From an uncultured Opitutia bacterium (GTDB lineage: Bacteria > Verrucomicrobiota > Verrucomicrobiia > Opitutales > UBA953): DNA of 32,667 bases. The stretch spans positions 1-32,667 of the forward strand of contig CAIKRN010000056.1 of NCBI GenBank assembly GCA_903829855.1. The letters run 5' to 3'. Below, one piece after another: positions 13,330 through 28,800 of the stretch; positions within the stretch are counted from its first letter, which is position 1, and each line of letters begins with the position of its first letter. A program made the position numbers and the translations under genes. A model generated the notes under the pieces. The model did not search any database and had not been told where the DNA came from. It saw only the letters and a list, made by a program, of their open reading frames with translations.

Positions 13330-13356
13330 AAAAGCCCCGGATCTCCGGGGCTTTTT
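13330..13356. terminator. Terminator after ferredoxin (structure could work in both directions)
   Basis: AAAAGCCCCGG-ATCT-CCGGGGCTTTTT; 11-bp stem. Confidence 0.85.
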
Positions 13357-13393
13357 GTTTGGGTCCTTCCGACGCGGCGCCTACATTCATCCC

Positions 13394-13801
13394 ATGGGCG
13401 TTAAAATCTCCTGCGAATACCTCGGTGATCTACGCGTGCGCGCCACCCACGGTCCATCGGGTACCATCCTCCACACCGATGCGCCCGTGGATAATCACGG
13501 CAAGGGTGAGTCGTTCTCCCCGACCGACCTCACGGCGACTTCGCTCGCAACGTGCATCATGACGATTCTCGGCATCCAGGCCAAAGGGCTGGAACTCGAC
13601 TTTCGTGGCCTGCGCGTTGAGGTTGAGAAACACATGACCGCTCAGCCTCCGCGTCGCATCGCGAAGCTCGAGGCGACGGTCTATATGCCCGCCGGTATTG
13701 CCGAAGATTTACGCGACCGCCTGATCCGCGCGGCGAATGCTTGCCCCGTAAAACAGTCACTCCACCCCGACGTCGAGATTGTGCTGACCTGGGTGTGGTA
13801 G
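13394..13801 (+). CDS. OsmC-family peroxiredoxin-like protein
   Basis: MGVKISCEYLGDLRVRATHGPSGT; GESFSPTDLTATSLATCIMTILG; ANACPVKQSLHPDVEI (two conserved Cys). Confidence 0.9.
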   Translation: MGVKISCEYLGDLRVRATHGPSGTILHTDAPVDNHGKGESFSPTDLTATSLATCIMTILGIQAKGLELDFRGLRVEVEKHMTAQPPRRIAKLEATVYMPAGIAEDLRDRLIRAANACPVKQSLHPDVEIVLTWVW

Positions 13802-15424: not shown

Positions 15425-15453
15425 ATAAAAAGACCCCGGAGGTCCGGGGTCTT
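15425..15453 (-). terminator. Intrinsic terminator for the SlyD-like gene
   Basis: Plus-strand AAAAAGACCCCGGA-GG-TCCGGGGTCTT; on the minus strand an 11-bp stem followed by TTTTT. Confidence 0.75.
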
Positions 15454-15476: not shown

Positions 15477-16136
15477 TTAGGCCGAGCAACCGCAACCGCC
15501 AGAACCGCAGCCACCTTGCTTCTGGGCGACGGGTTGTTCGGTGGAGCAACAGCCACCCGCCGAGGCGCCTTCTTCCGAAGAGCAGCAACCGCCTTCAGAA
15601 GCTTCACCCGTGGAGCAACAGCCACCTTCGGAGCCTTCGCTCGAGCCGCAGCCACCCCCACCACAGCAACCGCCAGACTGGTGCGGATGACCATGGGCGA
15701 GTTCGGTGAGTTCGGCGGCGCGGACGGCGACGACCTTGATGTCAAAATGAAGGGTCTTGCCGGCGAGCTCGTGATTGCCATCGAGCGTCACTTCTTCGCC
15801 TTCGATCTGCTTGATCGTGAGGACGCGCATACCGAGATTAGTTTCGGCGTGGAAGCGCATACCGAGCTGCGGGGTGTTGGCGCCGAAGGCATTGAGCGGG
15901 ACGCGCTGGAGAAGCTTGTCGCTGTATTCACCGTAGCCGAGCTGCGGCGGCACCGAGATGGATTTGGTGGCGCCGACTTCGAGGCCTTCGACACCCTGCT
16001 CGAGTCCGGGAATGATGTTCTGGGCACCGTGGAGATATTCCATCGGGCCACGATCACCGGAGGCGTCGATGACGTTACCCTGGTCGTCCTTCAGGGTGTA
16101 TTCGATGCTGACGACAGTTTCTTTAGCTACGCGCAT
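15477..16136 (-). CDS. FKBP-type peptidyl-prolyl isomerase, SlyD-like, with Cys-rich repeat C-terminus
   Basis: MRVAKETVVSIEYTLKDDQGNVIDAS, GPMEYLHGAQNIIPGLEQGVEGLEVG, DGNHELAGKTLHFDIKVV; tail GGCCGGGGCG...GGCCST...GGCCSS...GGCCST...GGCGSGGCGCSA. Confidence 0.93.
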   Translation of the reverse strand: MRVAKETVVSIEYTLKDDQGNVIDASGDRGPMEYLHGAQNIIPGLEQGVEGLEVGATKSISVPPQLGYGEYSDKLLQRVPLNAFGANTPQLGMRFHAETNLGMRVLTIKQIEGEEVTLDGNHELAGKTLHFDIKVVAVRAAELTELAHGHPHQSGGCCGGGGCGSSEGSEGGCCSTGEASEGGCCSSEEGASAGGCCSTEQPVAQKQGGCGSGGCGCSA

Positions 16137-16246
16137 AGTCATTGGGATGGTCGAAATTACGGGGTTCCCAGCCGCTGGCAAGTCACCATGCCATCTAAAC
16201 CTTGACCGCCCAGCGGGGGCGGGGTTGCCTTACCTTCCTGCTGTTT

Positions 16247-17714: not shown

Positions 17715-18254
17715 CTATCCCCGGGGGTCGGCTTCGATGGCGATGGCGTTGCCGAGTTCCCAAGCGGCTTCGTAGGCTGCGACATAGTCTGGCGAGGACC
17801 AGGCGGGCGATGCGGGCTCTCCGCCCAATCCGGCGATGAAGCCGTAACGGATACCATGCGAAATCCGGCGCCGACGGGGGTTCTCGCGGGCATTACTCCA
17901 ATCGAGTGCCGAGGTGAAGCCCGCGTCCGGAATCGGTTGCACGACCGAACGCCCGACCTGCCAGGCGACGACGCCCGCATGATCGAGGTCGCTGACCCGG
18001 CGACCCAGCGCGAGGGATAGTGGGACGGGGCCGTTTTGCCGCCCGGCTTCGATTTGGGCACGGATTTGTAACTGCAAGGCCACCCGCCAGCGTTCGTCCA
18101 CCGTGAGGAGTCCGAAGTCAAAATCGGGGTCATCCGCGGCGGTGTCTCTTAATTCCGTCCGGGCGTATTGCCGCCATTTGCTCAGCCATGTGTCCCATTG
18201 TTCGGTGCCTCGAAGGGGTGGCTTGCCCAGCCAGTCAGGTAGATCTTCTCGCAT
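17715..18254 (-). CDS. Hypothetical protein (179 aa)
   Basis: Uninterrupted ORF upstream of rmuC on the same strand; no family recognised. Confidence 0.6.
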   Translation of the reverse strand: MREDLPDWLGKPPLRGTEQWDTWLSKWRQYARTELRDTAADDPDFDFGLLTVDERWRVALQLQIRAQIEAGRQNGPVPLSLALGRRVSDLDHAGVVAWQVGRSVVQPIPDAGFTSALDWSNARENPRRRRISHGIRYGFIAGLGGEPASPAWSSPDYVAAYEAAWELGNAIAIEADPRG

Positions 18255-18348: not shown

Positions 18349-20532
18349 ATGATGGTCGACATGCCGAGCGTAAAAAAACCTCAAATAAGCGGATTTCTAA
18401 TCGAACTTATCCTGAAGATTGGTGTTATCCAACCATACCCTACTCCAGTGATTAGCTCTATTACGTCCCCGCGCGAACGCCGGGCTCATCTCCCTCTTGT
18501 TTGCCTAATGCTTGCAGGTGCTTTCGCGCCCGTAGAGTTTTTCGGCCAAGCCGCCCCTGCAGCCGCCCCCGCGGCCGTAGTCTCGGCTACCGCCGCCGCT
18601 GTCCCGGTGCCCGAGCTTGCCGGCTCCGATAAGGTCGGCCCAGTGATCCTGCGCGACGAAACGGTCGCCCAAGTGCTCGACCTGATGCAGCGCTGGACGG
18701 GCAAATCCATTCTCCGCCCGCAGGCCTTACCCGCCAGCCTCTACACGCTCTCCTTGCCGGCCTCCGTGACGCGCGATGAGGCACTGCTGGCGATCGAAAC
18801 CTTGCTCAACCTGAACGGCATCGCGGTCATTCAGCAGGGCGACAAGTTCCTCAAGGTTATCCCAAACCTCGTCGCCAAGGGCGAGTCGCCCGCGCTCATC
18901 GCGGATAGCACGCTGAAGATGCCCCCCAGCGGCCGCATCGCTTCCAAGATTTTCACCCTGAAGCACGCAAACGCTCAGGAGTTTGCGACGCAGATCGTAG
19001 GCATCTTGAATACCACGCTGGCGGCCCCGCCCGTATTCTTCGGTCGCAATAACGCCCTGCTGATCACGGATTCAATCACCAATCTGCAGAAGATTGAAAA
19101 CCTGATGCTGCAGCTCGACAAGCCACAGCTCGATGTCATCGCCACCAAGGCCTACATACTCAAGAGCGCGATGGCTACGGACATCGTTACCAAGCTGACA
19201 ACCATGCTGCGCACGCCCCAGGCCGCTTCCGGGGCTGCTCCGTTCCGCCTCAGCACGGGCACGACCTTCTTGGCCGACGAACGCACCAACCGCGTGCTGC
19301 TCCTCGGCTCTGCCGATCAGCATGATTTCTTCGACAAGCTCATCGAGACGCTCGACCAGAAGTCCAATCCCAACACCAAGACTGATGTGATCTTCCTCCG
19401 CCACGCGGATGCGAAAGCCGTCGCCGATGTCGTCACCTCGCTGGTGACTGGGCAGAATACCGCGACGACCCGCACGAACGGGGCCGCCAAGACGACCACG
19501 CTCAACCGCACGCCCGCCCCCGCCGCCGCCCCTGGTGCGCCCTCCGGCCCACAGAATGGCGCCGATGAATTCAGCAGCATGGTCACGGTGATTCCGGATA
19601 TCCGCAGCAACTCCGTCGTCGTCTCAGGCACGACCGACGACCTTCGCCTCCTGCATGATTTGATCGACAAGGTGGACATCGTCCTCCCGCAAGTCCGTGT
19701 CGAGGTTGTCATCGCTGAAGTGACCCTAACGGATAACGACCAGAATGGCATCAGTGCGCTTGGACTCAGTGTGACAGCCGGGAAGCTGACGGGTGTCAAT
19801 GGCACGGTCGCTGGCGGCACGGTCGGGGCAAATGTCAATGGCACGGGTATCGCTACCCTCGCGCCGAATGGCTCGCTCACCGGCGCCATCGGTCTCAGCA
19901 CGACCGACCGCTTGAATAATTACCGCGTGCTTTCCGTTCCTTCGGTGACGACCACCCACAACAAGGAAGCCACGATCTTCGTCGGCGAATCAGATCCGGT
20001 CATTACCGGAACGACTACTTCCACGGTCACCGCGGGCACCTCTACTTCGACGGTCACGATGCGCGACATCGGCATCAACCTCAAGATCCTGCCCCTCATT
20101 GGCAAAGACGGTGCCGTGCAGATGCAGGTTTCGCAGTCCGTCGAAGACATTATCCGCACCACGGTCGTCGACGGAAACGACCAACCGATCATCGGCCGCC
20201 GCACCATGGATTCATATGTCAGTGCGATGAGCGGTGAAATTATCGTCATGGGCGGCCTGCAGCGGACTACGAAGAAAAAGGTTACGACGCGCCTTGGTCC
20301 GATTCCCATCATTGGCGACTTCTTGGGCTCCACGACCGATGTCGAAGTGCGCCAAGAGCTGGTGATTTTCATGCGTCCTTACGTCTTGAATGCTTCCGCC
20401 GTCGATAATCTCGACGCCCTCAGCCGCATCGATGCATCGTCCGTCGGCCCCGATGTGCGCAAGTTTATCGACCGTGCTCCAGGCAAGCCCCTGCCGGTTG
20501 AAGGTAAGCCCGCCGCGCCTGCCGCCAAGTAA
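18349..20532 (+). CDS. gspD: Type II secretion system secretin GspD (start uncertain; GTG at 18448 is an alternative)
   Basis: N0/N1-type domains (GPVILRDETVAQVLDLMQRWTGKSILRPQ; KIFTLKHANAQEFATQIVGIL), secretin core with RLGPIPIIGDFLGSTTDVEVRQELVIFMRPYVL. Confidence 0.93.
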   Translation: MMVDMPSVKKPQISGFLIELILKIGVIQPYPTPVISSITSPRERRAHLPLVCLMLAGAFAPVEFFGQAAPAAAPAAVVSATAAAVPVPELAGSDKVGPVILRDETVAQVLDLMQRWTGKSILRPQALPASLYTLSLPASVTRDEALLAIETLLNLNGIAVIQQGDKFLKVIPNLVAKGESPALIADSTLKMPPSGRIASKIFTLKHANAQEFATQIVGILNTTLAAPPVFFGRNNALLITDSITNLQKIENLMLQLDKPQLDVIATKAYILKSAMATDIVTKLTTMLRTPQAASGAAPFRLSTGTTFLADERTNRVLLLGSADQHDFFDKLIETLDQKSNPNTKTDVIFLRHADAKAVADVVTSLVTGQNTATTRTNGAAKTTTLNRTPAPAAAPGAPSGPQNGADEFSSMVTVIPDIRSNSVVVSGTTDDLRLLHDLIDKVDIVLPQVRVEVVIAEVTLTDNDQNGISALGLSVTAGKLTGVNGTVAGGTVGANVNGTGIATLAPNGSLTGAIGLSTTDRLNNYRVLSVPSVTTTHNKEATIFVGESDPVITGTTTSTVTAGTSTSTVTMRDIGINLKILPLIGKDGAVQMQVSQSVEDIIRTTVVDGNDQPIIGRRTMDSYVSAMSGEIIVMGGLQRTTKKKVTTRLGPIPIIGDFLGSTTDVEVRQELVIFMRPYVLNASAVDNLDALSRIDASSVGPDVRKFIDRAPGKPLPVEGKPAAPAAK

Positions 20533-20533
20533 T

Positions 20534-22219
20534 ATGCGGACAGTTAACCGGAACGGACTTCCTCCGGCGATAGCCGAGAGACTCAGCGATGAAGCCCGGG
20601 CTTCCTTTGCCGAGACTCCGCGTGAGGCCCGCTTCAAGTTTCTCGCTCAAGCCTTGGGCCTCGATGAAGCTGCCTTGCTGGCCGAACTGTCGAAACTCAC
20701 GGGCCTTGAGGTGCTCGAAGAGCCCGCGATTGATCCGGATGGGTTGAAGATTCTGCCCGCGCGCATTGCCTCCGAAGCCCAAGTTGTTCCGACGCTGATG
20801 CCTGGCGGCGAAGTGGGTCGGCTGCATCTCGTCACCTCGCTCCCTCCCGACCACGACACCGCCCACTGGGTCGCGACCTTTGCCGCCCGCCGCCCGAAAT
20901 GGTATTTGGCTCCGCCCGAACGCGTGGCCCAACTGATTACCGAAAATTACGGCGTCGGCTCTGGTAGCCTTGACGATGAAGCCGATGGGCTGGACGAATA
21001 TGAAGCCGCCCCTTCGGATGTGGAAGCCGACCAAGATGCGGCTGTAGTCCGTTTCGTTACCGACGTCCTGACGCAGGCGGTCGCCGAAGGCGCCACGGAC
21101 GTTCACTTCGAGCCGCAAGAGACCAACCTCCGTATTCGTTACCGCGTCGACGGCGTGCTCATCGCGGTCCCTTTGCCGGAAAACTTGGCCCGCTTCCAAG
21201 ATGCTATTATTTCCCGCCTGAAGATTATGGCGCGGCTGAATATCTCCGAGCGCCGCCTCCCGCAGGACGGACGCATCAATTTCCGTGATGGCAAGACGGT
21301 GCTCGATATTCGCGTCTCGACGATTCCGACCATCTACGCCGAATCCGTTTCCCTGCGTCTGCTCAACCAGCGCAAGGAAGCTTACAACATGGACCGCATC
21401 GGCATGGACGCCGAGGAGCAGGCCGCGGTGCGCAAGGTGCTGGATTACCCACACGGGATCATTCTCGTGACCGGCCCGACCGGCTCAGGTAAGTCCACCA
21501 CGCTCAATGCCTTCCTTCAGGCCATCAACTCGCCCGAGCTGCGCATCGTCACGATTGAAGATCCGATCGAGTATGAAGTGCCCGGCGCCAATCAGGTCCA
21601 GACCCGCGCTGAAATCGGCCTCACTTTCGCGAGCGCTCTCCGGAGTACACTGCGACAGGACCCCGACGTCATCATGGTCGGGGAAATCCGTGACCTCGAG
21701 ACCGCCGAGATTTCCATCCGCGCCTCGCTGACGGGTCACCTGGTCTTCTCGACCCTCCACACCAATGACGCCCCCGGCGCCATTACCCGCTTGGTCGATA
21801 TGGGCGTGGAGCCTTTCCTCGTTGGTTCAGCCGTGGAGCTGGTCATTGCCCAACGTCTCGTCCGTCGCCTCTGCGCCGATTGTGCCAAGACCGTTCCGGT
21901 AGATCGGGCCAAACTTCTGCCCGCGCTCGAGGCGCTGGGAATGGATGAAAGTTTCCTGAAAGGCGTGACGTCACTCCGCGAGGCCGTGGGTTGCCGGAAG
22001 TGCCGCAGCACGGGCTACCGTGGGCGCGTGGGCGTCTTCGAAATTTTCCACCCCAAGCCCTTGCATGATCTGGTCGTCGGACGCGTCAGTAACCGCGAGC
22101 TCACTGAAAAAGCCATCGCGCAGGGCATGCGCCCACTCGCCAAGTCCGGCTGGCTTAAGGTCGTCGCTGGTAACACCACGATTGACGAGCTCGTCCGTAA
22201 CCTGAGCTCGAACGAGTAA
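20534..22219 (+). CDS. gspE: Type II secretion ATPase GspE
   Basis: Walker A GPTGSGKSTTL, Asp/His boxes, Walker B-type DPDVIMVGEIRDLETAEI, CxxC zinc motifs CADC and CRKC. Confidence 0.95.
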   Translation: MRTVNRNGLPPAIAERLSDEARASFAETPREARFKFLAQALGLDEAALLAELSKLTGLEVLEEPAIDPDGLKILPARIASEAQVVPTLMPGGEVGRLHLVTSLPPDHDTAHWVATFAARRPKWYLAPPERVAQLITENYGVGSGSLDDEADGLDEYEAAPSDVEADQDAAVVRFVTDVLTQAVAEGATDVHFEPQETNLRIRYRVDGVLIAVPLPENLARFQDAIISRLKIMARLNISERRLPQDGRINFRDGKTVLDIRVSTIPTIYAESVSLRLLNQRKEAYNMDRIGMDAEEQAAVRKVLDYPHGIILVTGPTGSGKSTTLNAFLQAINSPELRIVTIEDPIEYEVPGANQVQTRAEIGLTFASALRSTLRQDPDVIMVGEIRDLETAEISIRASLTGHLVFSTLHTNDAPGAITRLVDMGVEPFLVGSAVELVIAQRLVRRLCADCAKTVPVDRAKLLPALEALGMDESFLKGVTSLREAVGCRKCRSTGYRGRVGVFEIFHPKPLHDLVVGRVSNRELTEKAIAQGMRPLAKSGWLKVVAGNTTIDELVRNLSSNE

Positions 22220-22226
22220 CGGAGCG

Positions 22227-23459
22227 ATGCCCGTATTTAATTACAGTGCCCGCGACGGTGGCGGCAACGTGACCGACGGCACCGTAGATGCACCCAATCG
22301 TCGGGAAGCCCTTCGGCGCCTGCAGGCTCGTGGGTTAAAGCCCAGCAAGGTGGAAGAGTCTGGTGCAGCGATTCGCGCGAAGGAGTCCGCTAAAGAAGGC
22401 GGCGTGGCCGACAAGGATCTGCAGCCGACGAGTGCGGACTGCCTGCCGTTTCTTGAATCCATGGCGGACTTAGTCCGCAGCGGCATGTCGGCGGGTGAGT
22501 CCTTGCGACTCTTGGCCCTGCGCCTGCAGAAATCTCGCCTTCGCACTTTGTGTGCCGGCCTCTGGGCACGCCTGGGCGAAGGGCAAAGCCTCTCTGTCGC
22601 GATGGGTGCTTACCCCAAGGTCTTTGACGGGCAGACGCTCAACCTCATCGCCGCGGGCGAAGCCACGGGGAATCTCCGCGATGTCATCGAACGCCTCATC
22701 TCGCACTTCACCGAGCAGCGGGAATTTCGCCGCAAGCTCGTCTCGGCACTCTCTTACCCTGTCTTCATTTGTTTTGTCGCGGTGGGCGTGATCATTTTCT
22801 TCGTCCTCTTTCTGCTTCCGCGATTGGAGACGCTCCTCAAGTCCCTGGGCGGCGAGATGCCGCTGGCCACGAAGATGCTCATCTGGTTTGCGAACACGCT
22901 TCTCTGGGTCGGGCCAATCTTCGCGATCATCCTGATTGTGGGCGCGATCTTCATTCACGAGTGGCGTAAAAAGGAGGCGGGGATGCTCGCTTCGGATGGC
23001 CTCCTGCTGAAGCTGCCGCTGGCTGGCACTTTCGTGATGCGTGTCTCGGTGCTCAACTTTTGCCACACCTTGGCCGTGTTGCTGGAGAACGGGATTACGA
23101 CCGCCGAGGCCTTGCGTCTCGCCGAAAAGACCGCTCCGAATCGCGCGCTGCGCCAGCAGCTTCGGGAGGCCACCAATCGCGTGTTGGAAGGAGACAGCCT
23201 TTCCAAGGCCTTGGGTCGTACGGGCTATTTCCCGCGCTTGCTCCTCGATCGCGTGGCCGTCGCCGAACAGACGGGCAACCTCGCGCCCGGCTTGCGGGAT
23301 ATTTCGCGCTCTTACCGGGCTGACCTCGATCGCTGGCTCAACACCGTTTCACAGACGATTTCCGCGTCGGTGCTCATCACCGCCTTCTCGTTTGTCGCCT
23401 TTATCGCCTTTGCGATTGTGTCCGCGGTTTTCAAGGTCAGCCAGAGCTTCAGCTTCTGA
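22227..23459 (+). CDS. gspF: Type II secretion inner-membrane platform protein GspF
   Basis: MPVFNYSARDGGGNVTDGTVDAPNRREALRRLQARGL; repeated T2SSF domains with TM segments; LVSALSYPVFICFVAVGVIIFFVLFLLPRLE. Confidence 0.94.
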   Translation: MPVFNYSARDGGGNVTDGTVDAPNRREALRRLQARGLKPSKVEESGAAIRAKESAKEGGVADKDLQPTSADCLPFLESMADLVRSGMSAGESLRLLALRLQKSRLRTLCAGLWARLGEGQSLSVAMGAYPKVFDGQTLNLIAAGEATGNLRDVIERLISHFTEQREFRRKLVSALSYPVFICFVAVGVIIFFVLFLLPRLETLLKSLGGEMPLATKMLIWFANTLLWVGPIFAIILIVGAIFIHEWRKKEAGMLASDGLLLKLPLAGTFVMRVSVLNFCHTLAVLLENGITTAEALRLAEKTAPNRALRQQLREATNRVLEGDSLSKALGRTGYFPRLLLDRVAVAEQTGNLAPGLRDISRSYRADLDRWLNTVSQTISASVLITAFSFVAFIAFAIVSAVFKVSQSFSF

Positions 23460-23475
23460 CCGAACTCTCCGGCGG

Positions 23476-24117
23476 TTACTTCGTGGCCGGGGCTGGCGTC
23501 GGTGCGGGCACCGGAGTCAGGGCTGTCCCGGGCGTGGGCGTCTGGGCTGGGCCGGGGATGGGGTCTCCGGGTGCCTTCACTGCTGGCGTAACTTCACCTA
23601 GTAATTCTAAGGCGGTGACTTGGACTTTTAAGGTCACGGTGCCGCCGGCGCCACGGTCCGCCTGCATGGAAAGTTGGGCGATGGCTAGGTAAGGGGCGCG
23701 CACCTTGACGCTTTCGTAGAAGCGCAGGACGCTGGCGATGTCTGCTTTACGGCAGGACATCTGGAGCGAATGAATCGCAAACTTGCCGGCTTTCTGGGGC
23801 GACTTGGGCGATTCGGTGCTGGGGTTGAGCCCCGCTTCGCGCGCAGCATTGACGGCTTCGGCGACGAGCTTGGCTTCATCGTAGCCGTGTCCGGCGTCGA
23901 GCCCTTGAATCGTTCTATCTGCGGCCATCCGAATCTCTTTCTCGCGAGTGGACCAGGATTTTTGGACAGCGACCTCCTCGTCCTTTAATTGCAAGTCATC
24001 CCAGCCTTCGCGGCCGCGGCCGAGGACGTTGGCGCACCAGAAGCCCGCGAGAATCACAAAGAGCCCGAGCGCCATGATGCGCTCGCTGGGCTTTAGGCCG
24101 AAAAATAAATGTTTCAT
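23476..24117 (-). CDS. GspM-like type II secretion protein
   Basis: N-terminal MKHLFFGLKPSERIMALGLFVILAGFW TM anchor, position at the end of the G-to-L operon, Pro-rich tail. Sequence evidence for the family is weak; position supports it. Confidence 0.6.
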   Translation of the reverse strand: MKHLFFGLKPSERIMALGLFVILAGFWCANVLGRGREGWDDLQLKDEEVAVQKSWSTREKEIRMAADRTIQGLDAGHGYDEAKLVAEAVNAAREAGLNPSTESPKSPQKAGKFAIHSLQMSCRKADIASVLRFYESVKVRAPYLAIAQLSMQADRGAGGTVTLKVQVTALELLGEVTPAVKAPGDPIPGPAQTPTPGTALTPVPAPTPAPATK

Positions 24118-25268
24118 TGTTTGGTGGCTTCGGCGGTCTTGAGAAGGTCAGCCTGTTTGAAGACTACTTCGAGGCGGAAGGTCGTCGCGGTGTCACGCAC
24201 CTTGGGTTCGCTGTTGGTGGCGCTTTCGACTTCCGGGATGGCTTTCACGGCCTTCAGGAGGTCGGAGATGTCGCCCGCATTGGGGGTCTTCGCGTCGATC
24301 GTGATGGTCGGCTTGGTGAGCACGCTCGCCTTTTGTTTTTTGGCTTCGCACGTGATGTTGGTGAACTCGACGGTGGCTGGGCGCTTTTCGTTCACGAGGG
24401 CCAGCATTTCTAAAGGAAGTAGGCGCTTGATCCCCAGGTCCGCTAGTCGCGTCGAGATGCCATCGAGCTCTTTAATCTCTTCGATGTTTGGCCGGGCTTT
24501 TTCGATTTGCGCCTCGAGCGAATTGGCGCGTCCCCGGATGAACGCCGTACCGACTTCAGCCACGACGCAGATGACCAGCACGGCCGCGCAGGCTTGGGCG
24601 ACCGTCCACATAATCAAGTTGGCACGCTCTTTCTTTCGACGCGCAGCGAGGAAGTCACTATCCCGGATGTCGGCATCGTCCAGTTGAGCTTTGGAGACCG
24701 TAAAAGTTTCATGGTCTTTAGCGGTGAGGGCTAGGGCGCCCTCGACCATCTGACCCGTTAACAGCCCACTGATGATTTCAACCGCGCAATCGGCAGGGAG
24801 TTCAGCAAGGGCGGCGGCTTCCCGCGCGATGCCTACTTCGTCATGGTCAGCCCGGTCGGTGACGACCACCGCAGTGGGGAGGGAGTCGCCAGCCTTCCAG
24901 GCGAGGGCGGTCAGCCGTTCTTCACCTTGGTGCACCACCACGCCGCCTTCAGCGAGGCGATGGCCGCAGAGGGCAAGAAACTCTGGGATAACCGGGCAGT
25001 TTTCAGGCCAAGCAAAGCTTTCTTCCGGCGTGAAGCGCCGACGGTGGGCGGAGTAGGCGAGGACTTGCTTACCATCGGCGGTAATCACATGGCCGACGAG
25101 CATTTGCTCGAGAGGAAAGGGAGAGAGCGCTTCAAGCTGGAGGTTGACCTGGCTAGTGACATCTGCCCCCTCCACAGCGAAACGGCGGACGAAGAAGCGG
25201 TTGCCTGGAAGCAAAGCAGCTTCACCGTGTGAGTCACTTTTAAGGCTGGGTAGGAAAGCGGGGCTCAT
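24114..25268 (-). CDS. GspL/PilM-PilN-like type II secretion protein
   Basis: Actin-like N-terminal half, single TM LIMWTVAQACAAVLVICVVAEVG, C-terminal PilN/GspL-like periplasmic part; operon position. Confidence 0.65.
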   Translation of the reverse strand: MSPAFLPSLKSDSHGEAALLPGNRFFVRRFAVEGADVTSQVNLQLEALSPFPLEQMLVGHVITADGKQVLAYSAHRRRFTPEESFAWPENCPVIPEFLALCGHRLAEGGVVVHQGEERLTALAWKAGDSLPTAVVVTDRADHDEVGIAREAAALAELPADCAVEIISGLLTGQMVEGALALTAKDHETFTVSKAQLDDADIRDSDFLAARRKKERANLIMWTVAQACAAVLVICVVAEVGTAFIRGRANSLEAQIEKARPNIEEIKELDGISTRLADLGIKRLLPLEMLALVNEKRPATVEFTNITCEAKKQKASVLTKPTITIDAKTPNAGDISDLLKAVKAIPEVESATNSEPKVRDTATTFRLEVVFKQADLLKTAEATKQ

Positions 25269-26509
25269 TTTTTGAGGTTCTGCCTGGCGGCGGGTGTTTC
25301 GGAATGGGTGGGGGCGGGTGGGGCTCCGTTATCTTCCTCCCAGGCGAGAATCTGGAAGGGGTAGTTGATCGTGTTGCTAGCAACTCGGCCACTCATGGTT
25401 GAGGTGCCCAGGGTGGCGGGAGCCTCGATGCCGGGGGTCAGATAGGGAGAGGGCTTGGTAGTAGTCGACCCCGCGGAGGCTGTCGAGGTTCCCGTTGTTC
25501 TTGGAATAGTCGGGGCCCTGATGCTAGTCCGGGATTGGCCGATGCTGGTATCGGTATCCGGGTTGGGGGTGGCCGAGGGGTAGGCCACATCCTGCCGCAC
25601 GGCCACGAGGGCGCTAACCCGACACTTAGAAAGCCCCTCTTTAACGGTGACCCTCACCCACATCAGGATGACTTCATCATCGAACATGCGTAAGGGGGCA
25701 TTGCCCCCGATGAGGAGGCGGACTTCATCCGTCACGCGGAAATAGGGAGGGGTGCCGACGGATTTCCGGCTGATTTCTTTCTGGCGGTCACGGATTTGGC
25801 CGAGCTGGGTCTCGTCGAGACCTTGGGAGAGTAACACGGCGTCTGAGGCGGTGTTAATGTTGGATTGGGGGAAGGTGTAGAGGCTCACGCATGACTTGAA
25901 CGCATCAAAGAGGGGCGTTGAGTGGCCGAGCTCATCGAAGAAGAAATCCTTGGCGACGCCGACGGAACGGAACTCCTCGAAGGTGCGAAATGGTCGTCGG
26001 GCCGGGCGATAAGAAAGGGTGGAGCGCTGGTACGCGGCGTCGGTGGCGGCCTCCTCGATGGATTCATAGGACTTACTTTGCCAGGCGACGAGCGCGTCGG
26101 CCACCTTCTCGGCATCACGTTGCTCCTGGCCGAGCGAGTAGAGTAGTTGGATGAGGTCATTCTTCGTCAGCACGCTCAGTGGCAACTTGGCGGTTTCATC
26201 CTCGTAGGCGAAAGTTACCTCTAGGCCGTCGCGGGCGGGGAAGTGGGCGTAGGCATGGGGATCTTCATAGCCCTGGGATGGTGCGTGGATTTTATTAAGG
26301 TCGATGGCGCGGATTTCGGCGATGACAGCGAGGGCGAGCTCCAGCTCGCTCTGCGCATCCGCCCGCAACCGTTGGCGATCCGCCGCCTGGGTCGACATTT
26401 GGAGCTCCAGCGAATTGTCCTCCATGAAGCGGCCGAGCGATAGCGAGGCCAGGGTGATCAGCACCAGCACGATGATAATGACCGATCCGCGGCGATGACG
26501 CTTCTTCAT
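25265..26509 (-). CDS. gspK: GspK-like minor pseudopilin
   Basis: RRGSVIIIVLVLITLASLSLGRFMEDNSLELQMSTQAADRQRLRADAQSELELAL; NINTASDAVLLSQGLDE (helix-hairpin-helix-like). Confidence 0.85.
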   Translation of the reverse strand: MKKRHRRGSVIIIVLVLITLASLSLGRFMEDNSLELQMSTQAADRQRLRADAQSELELALAVIAEIRAIDLNKIHAPSQGYEDPHAYAHFPARDGLEVTFAYEDETAKLPLSVLTKNDLIQLLYSLGQEQRDAEKVADALVAWQSKSYESIEEAATDAAYQRSTLSYRPARRPFRTFEEFRSVGVAKDFFFDELGHSTPLFDAFKSCVSLYTFPQSNINTASDAVLLSQGLDETQLGQIRDRQKEISRKSVGTPPYFRVTDEVRLLIGGNAPLRMFDDEVILMWVRVTVKEGLSKCRVSALVAVRQDVAYPSATPNPDTDTSIGQSRTSIRAPTIPRTTGTSTASAGSTTTKPSPYLTPGIEAPATLGTSTMSGRVASNTINYPFQILAWEEDNGAPPAPTHSETPAARQNLKK

Positions 26510-27189
26510 GGCGTGGAAGCGCCCGAGCGCTTGATGGGAATGTTGATAACGACTTCAGGGTCTACGGGCACCGCGTCCGGGTTCTTCGGCGTGGATTTTA
26601 GTTCGGGGAACTTGAAGATCAGATGGAGGCGCGCCGGCTTGAGCCAAGCCGTGCCCCCGTCGTCATGCTTGGGTTCATCTTCGGTTTTCCACTCCTTGAG
26701 CGTCGCATCGTAATACTCGTAGTGAAGCGCTTTGACGAAGGGGCTGATGACGGTTTCGTGCAAATCAGTTTTCTCGCGCTGTAACTCTAGCCGCGATTGC
26801 CATTGGAAAATCAGACCGCGGTCCGGATCGACAAATACATTGAAATCTACGTCAGGTAGGGGGCCTTCAGGCCAGTCCGCTAATCGCCCAGCGTCCGCGA
26901 GCATGAACGTGAGTCGCGGCTCGGTGGTGCCACTACCGTTGTCGATGTCTTGCAGGCTGACGCCGCTGGCGCCCGGCCCGTAGGTTGCGGATTCGAAGGT
27001 GCGTCGCACCATTTCCGCGACCGCGCGTGAGTGTTGGTCAAAGAGTCGCTGGTCGCGCCCCTTGCCCCAGAGCTCGCCCATGGAGAAAAGAAAAGTGTTC
27101 AGTGAGACCATCAGTGCGCCCAAGAGGGCAAGCGCCACCAGCATTTCGAGCATGGTGAAGCCGCGGCGATTTAGGCGGAGGTGGCTCAT
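26506..27189 (-). CDS. gspJ: GspJ-like minor pseudopilin
   Basis: Prepilin motif RRGFTMLEMLVALALLGALMVSL; operon position. Confidence 0.8.
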   Translation of the reverse strand: MSHLRLNRRGFTMLEMLVALALLGALMVSLNTFLFSMGELWGKGRDQRLFDQHSRAVAEMVRRTFESATYGPGASGVSLQDIDNGSGTTEPRLTFMLADAGRLADWPEGPLPDVDFNVFVDPDRGLIFQWQSRLELQREKTDLHETVISPFVKALHYEYYDATLKEWKTEDEPKHDDGGTAWLKPARLHLIFKFPELKSTPKNPDAVPVDPEVVINIPIKRSGASTP

Positions 27190-27818
27190 TGCTTGCCGGC
27201 ACCTTTGGGCGCGGGGGGTGGAGCTTTACCGCCGCCCGTGGCGCCACCTGGCTGGGTTGGTCCGCCCTTCTTTGGGGTGGGCGGCGTGCCGCTGGGATTC
27301 GCCGCCGTGGGCGGCACGAGTTTCTTTCCAGTGGTTTTGGTGCTCCGGAAGGTGGAATTCCCCAGGGCTTCATCATAGCCACGTTCTTTCAGGAGGCGCT
27401 CTTTCACTTCGTCGCGAATCTTTTGGCGATCCGAAGGAATCGACCAAGTCGGCCTCAGGAGCATGCGTGCTTCGGTGCGCTCAGGGCCGAACTCACCATT
27501 CTCAGTGGCTTGAAACTCGGCGGTCAGCACGACGGCAAAAAGGTCGCTCACCGAAGTGGGCTCGATCTTGCCCTTCCAGCGTGCGGTGCGGTTACCCGGC
27601 AGATGAATTTCGCCACCGGTTTCGACATCGTCGAAGCCCGGGGTCTCTAGCAAGGCCGCCCGACAACGCGCCATATCGTCGAGTGCCTGAAAATCTTGCT
27701 TCATCGCAATGCGGCTCATCAACACGTTGACATAGGCGCCGCCTAGGCTCGCCGCCGCCAAGGCGAAGATGGCGAGGCTGACGAGTACCTCGATCAGGGT
27801 GAAGCCGCGACGTTTCAT
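27186..27818 (-). CDS. gspI: GspI-like minor pseudopilin
   Basis: Prepilin motif MKRRGFTLIEVLVSLAIFALAAASLGGAYVN; operon position; long Pro/Gly/Lys-rich tail. Confidence 0.8.
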   Translation of the reverse strand: MKRRGFTLIEVLVSLAIFALAAASLGGAYVNVLMSRIAMKQDFQALDDMARCRAALLETPGFDDVETGGEIHLPGNRTARWKGKIEPTSVSDLFAVVLTAEFQATENGEFGPERTEARMLLRPTWSIPSDRQKIRDEVKERLLKERGYDEALGNSTFRSTKTTGKKLVPPTAANPSGTPPTPKKGGPTQPGGATGGGKAPPPAPKGAGKQ

Positions 27819-28357
27819 TTGGCGGGCACGGCCGGTAACGGCGCGCAGGTGAGGGGGTCGACCATCCGAATTTGGCGTTCGCCCTTGAAGGTGATTTCAA
27901 GGCGTACGCGGTCGCAGGTGCCATCCGGAAAGAAGCGCATGCGCGTCAGGGATTTCTCCGAGGCGACGCCGCCGAGTAAGATTGCCCCGGCTGATTCCGG
28001 CGGGAGAATCTTGACGGTCTTGTCCTCCATTTTGGGCAGGGTTTCCTCGTGGCGGGGCGTTTCGTCGATGGGGACTTCGTCGCCCCATGTGAAATCTGGG
28101 CTATTGTCATCGGTCGCTCCCGTGGGCGTTAGTTCGATGATGCGGCCGTGGAGCACCGCATTACGCCGTACATTTTGGAGGAGCGCTAGTAAGGCGGTCT
28201 CTGGGTCGGCATCGGTGGCGTTCTTGAGGAGCGCCGATGAGCCGCCGATGAGTACCGCCGCAATCATGGTCATCAGCCCAATCGCCAGCAGCGTCTCCAA
28301 AAGGGTGAAGCCGCCGCGCGCCTTAAGCCCGGTTGGATGCTGCCACGCCGTGTTCAC
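27815..28357 (-). CDS. gspH: GspH-like pseudopilin
   Basis: Prepilin motif ARGGFTLLETLLAIGLMTMIAAVLIGG; operon position. Confidence 0.78.
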   Translation of the reverse strand: MNTAWQHPTGLKARGGFTLLETLLAIGLMTMIAAVLIGGSSALLKNATDADPETALLALLQNVRRNAVLHGRIIELTPTGATDDNSPDFTWGDEVPIDETPRHEETLPKMEDKTVKILPPESAGAILLGGVASEKSLTRMRFFPDGTCDRVRLEITFKGERQIRMVDPLTCAPLPAVPAK

Positions 28358-28800
28358 CAGTTTCCGATATCGTCTGCCGTGTCTGGCTGCTTATCCCGGC
28401 CCATGGAGAACAAGTCGTAACTGTCGGTGTTATGCGTTCCAGGATAGCGATACTGATAAGGGGTGCCCCACGGATCATTGGGTGCGTTGCCGCCCGGGAC
28501 TTTAATGTACGGGCCCTTCCACTGGTCGGCCTTGCCATCCGGCGCCTTGATGAGCGCTTTGATGCCTTCTTCCGTCGAGGGATAGTCGCCCATGTCGCGG
28601 CGATAACTGAGCAACGGCGCTTCCAGCGAATTGCGCACAAAGATTTTGGCCGCGCCTTCTTGGCCCTGACCGAAGAACTTATCGAGGTTCTGCACGACGA
28701 CGCCCACGAGGAGCGCCATGATGGCGATCGTAATCAGGATTTCGAGCAGCGTGAAGCCCTTGCGGAGTCGACGGGCCGGGTTTTTCTGGAGTGAGGTCAT
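28354..28800 (-). CDS. gspG: Major pseudopilin GspG
   Basis: RKGFTLLEILITIAIMALLVGVVVQNL; DMGDYPSTEEGIKALI; WKGPYIK; DPWGTPYQYRYPG; DLFSMGRDKQPDTADDIGNW. Confidence 0.95.
   Translation of the reverse strand: MTSLQKNPARRLRKGFTLLEILITIAIMALLVGVVVQNLDKFFGQGQEGAAKIFVRNSLEAPLLSYRRDMGDYPSTEEGIKALIKAPDGKADQWKGPYIKVPGGNAPNDPWGTPYQYRYPGTHNTDSYDLFSMGRDKQPDTADDIGNW

Follow-up and report, generated by a model that had tools for sequence, protein, structure and literature searches.

SlyD is mostly regarded as a metallochaperone for nickel whose tail is rich in His. In the stretch of DNA analysed here (the window, 32,667 nucleotides), whose source genome belongs to Opitutae known mainly from metagenome-assembled genomes with lake-like sample names, a reverse-strand open reading frame for a SlyD-like protein ends in ...TELAHGHPHQSGGCCGGGGCGSSEGSEGGCCSTGEASEGGCCSSEEGASAGGCCSTEQPVAQKQGGCGSGGCGCSA*. 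What is a tail of this kind, in which cysteines stand in pairs, there for, and which metal, if any, would it hold? Among the metals known to be bound by SlyD tails, which differ in how long they are and in what they are made of, are Ni, Zn and Co (PMC7055735, PMC10653786), and the tail of E. coli SlyD serves [NiFe]-hydrogenase (PMC7055735, PMC10653786).

Judged by family models, sequence matches and predicted fold, the gene codes for the SlyD of this organism, a protein of the cytoplasm that is both a prolyl isomerase and a holdase chaperone. This bears out the assignment made in an earlier note on this DNA. The protein matches Pfam FKBP_C (PF00254) over the cut-off (E 2.7e-13) and the NCBIfam model PRK10737/SlyD with E 9.7e-41 and 139.8 bits. 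Because this score does not reach the PRK10737 equivalog cut-off of 174 bits, the protein is by sequence a SlyD of the wider family rather than of the narrow E. coli type. The best sequence relatives in the PDB are the SlyD proteins from E. coli (2k8i, E 1.8e-35) and Thermus thermophilus (3cgm), and Foldseek places the T. thermophilus protein on top (E 7.7e-19, TM by target length 0.88). In the AlphaFold model of the protein (A1), residues 1–150 mostly have pLDDT values of 85–97 and form a body of FKBP and insert-in-flap domains. The insert-in-flap domain is evident from the end-to-end alignment to SlyD structures, about 154 columns in the Foldseek match, and the FKBP catalytic domain from Y68 and F131, which are invariant in A1. 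Across residues 155–219, which contain 12 Cys besides acidic residues, the pLDDT is below 50, and this part is predicted to be disordered, as expected for the metal-ligand-rich tail of a SlyD. One further FKBP_C match is found elsewhere in the window's genome. The features of the locus are the following:

15477..16136, minus strand: slyD, 219 amino acids plus stop codon (family models, PDB sequence matches, start codon from relatives)
15696..16136, minus strand: folded part, with FKBP prolyl-isomerase domain and insert-in-flap chaperone domain (predicted; AlphaFold, Foldseek)
15681..15695, minus strand: HGHPH metal-site motif, residues 148–152 (alignment of homologues)
15480..15680, minus strand: Cys-rich tail, QSGGCC...GGCGCSA, predicted disordered, with 12 Cys, an acidic linker and no His (pLDDT and codon changes)
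15660..15671, minus strand: first GGCC unit, directly after HGHPH, in the nearly invariant frame (Cys columns of the alignment)
15546..15626 (approximate limits), minus strand: variable middle block, GGCC modules 2–4 in an acidic Ser/Glu linker (number of CC modules differs among relatives)
15486..15515, minus strand: terminal GGCGSGGCGC block, in the nearly invariant frame (Cys columns of the alignment)
15430..15453, minus strand: putative intrinsic terminator, a 10-pair stem followed by TTTTATT, about 24 nt past the slyD stop codon

Translation likely starts at the ATG at 16136 (MRVAKE...), since the candidate in-frame ATG upstream at 16142, which would add MT to the N-terminus, is part of an MTM site that lacks the ATG in most relatives. 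With a tRNA-Ala(CGC) gene divergent from it and a strong terminator-like hairpin downstream, slyD looks monocistronic from its sequence context. In the gap between the two genes (16143–16246) a segment GGTCAAGGTTTAGAT ... CCTTGC is conserved across much of the genus; it may be part of the promoter of the divergent tRNA-Ala gene. Upstream of slyD the alignment of relatives shows no clear metal box, and no metal genes are found as neighbours at the locus, where slyD stands alone. An OsmC-like protein is encoded on the opposite strand at 13355–13801 (plus strand) and recurs near slyD in 43 of 97 fetched loci (a redundant count); a conserved neighbour of 179 amino acids without a Pfam match (17715–18254, minus strand) does so in 48 of the 97 (likewise redundant). 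Farther away, at 18349–28800, several genes in a row resemble those of type II secretion systems or type IV pili (secretin-like, GspE/F-like and several pseudopilin-like open reading frames), called by eye from the translations.

The reverse-strand reading frame confirms the 12 Cys, in four GGCC units plus Cys-Gly ends, that had been noticed in the tail. The regular spacing of 12–14 residues does not hold, the steps from one CC to the next being 16, 11 and 12 residues. That His has been almost completely replaced by Cys is correct insofar as there is no His past HGHPH; three His persist, all of them within this motif, and a direction from His to Cys is only one possible polarity of the change. 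At a background Cys frequency of 0.8–1.5%, the chance of finding at least 12 Cys in 64 residues is 1e-13 to 2e-10. A recent tandem DNA duplication was considered as the origin of the tail and rejected, because Tandem Repeats Finder, run at score 30, detects no array and because the synonymous codons are not the same from module to module. A search of the window's genome for a second protein with a similar tail gave none at E values up to 10.

The cysteines are under selection. In 341 pairwise comparisons dN/dS is 0.129 for the tail versus 0.108 for the core, and Cys is kept in 97.5% of the aligned comparisons, although it should be noted that the MAFFT alignment of the CC modules favours the matching of Cys, a bias that the ungapped control described below reduces and does not remove. 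The share of codon differences that are synonymous is 90% for Cys, 45% for Ser, 33% for Glu and 19% for Ala in the same 341 pairs; these codon counts are descriptive and not tests, since pairwise comparisons are not independent. In the ungapped sets, from which sequences out of register were excluded, the picture is similar: in the eight distinct sequences closest to that of the window both TGC and TGT are seen in 9 of the 12 Cys columns with zero replacements (96 synonymous versus 0 replacement comparisons), and a second set of seven sequences shows a single change, from Cys to Gly. In the nearest relatives the Ser, Ala and Thr residues of the linker drift while the Cys stay. Within the nearest ungapped sets Glu is as well conserved as Cys, so acidity probably matters too, and part of the selection may concern disorder and charge and not Cys alone. 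Among the 55 homologues from the window's genus and its sister genus g5, HGHPH is invariant (55/55), the two Cys of the first GGCC are found in 54 (alignment column 10) and in all 55 (column 11), and the Cys of the terminal block are invariant wherever the column is present, the final one in 55/55. Random variation of the tail without conserved Cys pairs, the outcome that the earlier note had set against its own proposal, is thus not what is seen: the Cys positions are kept and the linkers vary. That the tail is conserved, thiol-rich and presumably metal-binding is well supported.

How far does such a tail extend? The slyD gene is present in 71 of 79 genomes of the window's family. A survey of SlyD homologues for GGCC repeats had been suggested; in the window's genus the frame HGHPH..GGCC...GGCGC is nearly invariant, and every complete homologue read from the genus has a Cys tail. 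Within the genus the number of GGCC modules in the middle block expands and shrinks, giving tails with 4 Cys (L126) to 14 Cys (L119). The proteins of L126 (204–707) and L073 have a natural minimal tail, HGHPHSSGGCCSGGGCGCSH, with only 4 Cys, and would be ready proteins for comparison. Tails of the sister genus g5 have 9–12 Cys plus some His, those of the sister genus g4 (L144–L149, L151) are acidic CxC tails such as CGGDCDCGC, and those of genus g2 are His-rich. In most of these g4 proteins HGHxH is altered (KHPET, KRPAA). In family f11 of the same order (L193–L217) CC repeats recur with another linker of the NDEPKAEGE type (GGCCNDEPKAEGECCSSEEPK); many genomes of this family also carry Ni-SOD and/or urease. 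On a tree of the core only, the CC-repeat label requires at least five changes forced by starred branches, the number of CC-repeat origins and the question of which changes are gains being uncertain owing to a short alignment and a tree with many open forks. Many homologues elsewhere in the phylum stop right after the FKBP domain. The best 30 gammaproteobacterial matches have an HGHxH-type motif with 0–4 His and at most one Cys in short tails such as HGHVHGPGGHHH; these 30 understate the long E. coli-type tails, none of which is among them. Across the order a trade-off between His and Cys is not significant (Spearman −0.16, p 0.10).

If the tail binds metal, nickel comes to mind: like that of E. 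coli SlyD, the tail could keep Ni(II) in reserve or deliver it to an enzyme that depends on it, urease or another one. Thiolates are able to bind Ni, and family f11, which is also CC-tailed, often has Ni-SOD. The window's own genome contains a urease cluster (L292, G000:C206) with ureA, ureB, ureC, ureE, ureF, ureG and ureD-like genes, identified from translations of the open reading frames and not by family scans; ABC transporter genes of the urea-uptake type adjoin the operon, and nickel is thus relevant to this organism. The orthologous protein, moreover, has a known role with Ni (PMC7055735). Urease is, however, found in only 5 of 30 sampled genomes of the window's genus, the window's own included, and for [NiFe]-hydrogenase and Ni-SOD there was no match in this genus within the sample of the order. 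In 26 of 31 genomes of the same family whose SlyD tail has at least 8 Cys, none of the three enzymes was detected, where it has to be considered that the survey of nickel enzymes covered these three families and that metagenome-assembled genomes are incomplete. Over 99 genomes of the order Cys-richness is not associated with the three enzyme families, a weak test because the tree gives just 4–7 independent pairs. In the window's genus, SlyD does not have the His-rich stretch found in the E. coli protein. Because the tail is present where no nickel enzyme is detected, storage of nickel, one of the options named at the outset, has become less likely, and we consider a nickel tail improbable.

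The Cys pairs could also be a redox switch or a sink for oxidants, disulfides altering the activity of the chaperone or oligomerizing it. OsmC-like proteins belong to a family with thiol peroxidases among its members, and in many relatives a gene for such a protein stands near slyD, as listed above, but on the opposite strand; adjacent CC pairs make poor reversible disulfides, and the fact that HGHxH is retained and that relatives have CxC variants points to metal. Thus, even though H. pylori SlyD multimerizes via its tail Cys under non-reducing conditions (PMC7840056), a redox function appears rather improbable to us. A role in handling Fe-S clusters or selenium, which the earlier note had also offered, would be in line with the contacts of E. 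coli and H. pylori SlyD to Fe-S assembly proteins (PMC10653786); it finds no support in the tail, which lacks a set of CxxC-type Fe-S motifs and resembles no chain of a solved protein in the PDB, or in the neighbourhood of slyD, where no Fe-S or Se gene was recognized, and we give it hardly any chance. Drift of a low-complexity segment without function would account for the variation in the Gly/Ser/Ala linkers and in the number of modules. It is contradicted by the codon data, which indicate strong selection on the Cys codons and the terminal frame, and by the recurrence of CC-repeat tails in other lineages, and is in our opinion very improbable.

The reading that we prefer, and hold to be probable, is a SlyD with a thiolate tail that buffers or stores soft metals, most likely Cu(I) and Zn(II). 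That the tail is kept in relatives without a detected nickel enzyme suggests such metals over nickel. The choice of Cu(I) and Zn(II), which we infer from general thiolate chemistry and from the poor fit to nickel enzymes, is the weakest step. The tail would be a thiolate appendage, with GGCC modules set in an acidic Gly/Ser/Glu linker between HGHPH and the terminal GGCG.GGCGC block, whose vicinal Cys would bind soft d10 metals in multi-thiolate clusters, Cu(I) and Zn(II) first and Cd or Hg incidentally. Metals would thus be buffered or stored beside the chaperone and may be handed to client proteins. Ni damps the isomerase activity of known SlyDs (PMC7840056), and the metal load may have the same effect here.

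How does this protein compare with known systems? With E. coli SlyD it shares the orthologous domain order, the HGHxH site and a disordered tail of metal ligands; the 13 His and 6 Cys in the tail of the E. coli protein (PMC10653786) contrast with 12 Cys, no His after HGHPH and repeated GGCC modules in that of the window. T. thermophilus SlyD, in which HGHxaaH is seen as a Ni/Zn site (PMC7055735), has the closest solved fold and the same HGHxH site but is without an extended tail (PMC7055735). The SlyD of Helicobacter pylori also has several Cys in its tail and binds Ni and Zn (PMC7055735); it differs in having 5 Cys and 5 His (PMC7840056) and in belonging to a nickel-centred organism. H. pylori HspA, a GroES with a His/Cys-rich extension, likewise joins a chaperone to a C-terminal extension, which in HspA sequesters metal (PMC7840056), but its fold is another one and its extension is mixed in His and Cys and linked to nickel. 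The label "metallothionein-like" stands as a working analogy, since the Cys are dense and soft-metal thiolate clusters would be expected in both cases; homology to bacterial metallothionein (PF02069), which is a small protein in its own right and has a fold of its own, does not stand. No sequence relation of the latter to the SlyD tail was found, and membership is rejected because the tail has no Pfam match; PF02069 also has none in the window's genome and is found in only 1 of 276 genomes of the order.

Metal-binding SlyD tails that contain Cys are already known, and their variability has been noted in reviews (PMC7055735). New is a nearly pure-Cys modular tail that is genus-wide and recurs in other lineages, of which we found no description in the literature searched. 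It is conceivable, though we regard it as doubtful, that the Opitutales SlyD tail is a modular, chaperone-tethered analogue of metallothionein, re-evolved several times with different linkers, which would serve a nickel-independent Cu/Zn homeostasis and replace the free metallothionein that nearly all of these genomes lack. A lineage that keeps a chaperone with a tail of Cys-pair modules, mostly without detected nickel enzymes, is a natural experiment on what such a tail is for, and the graded series from 4 to 14 Cys bears on how the type and number of ligands set the choice of metal.
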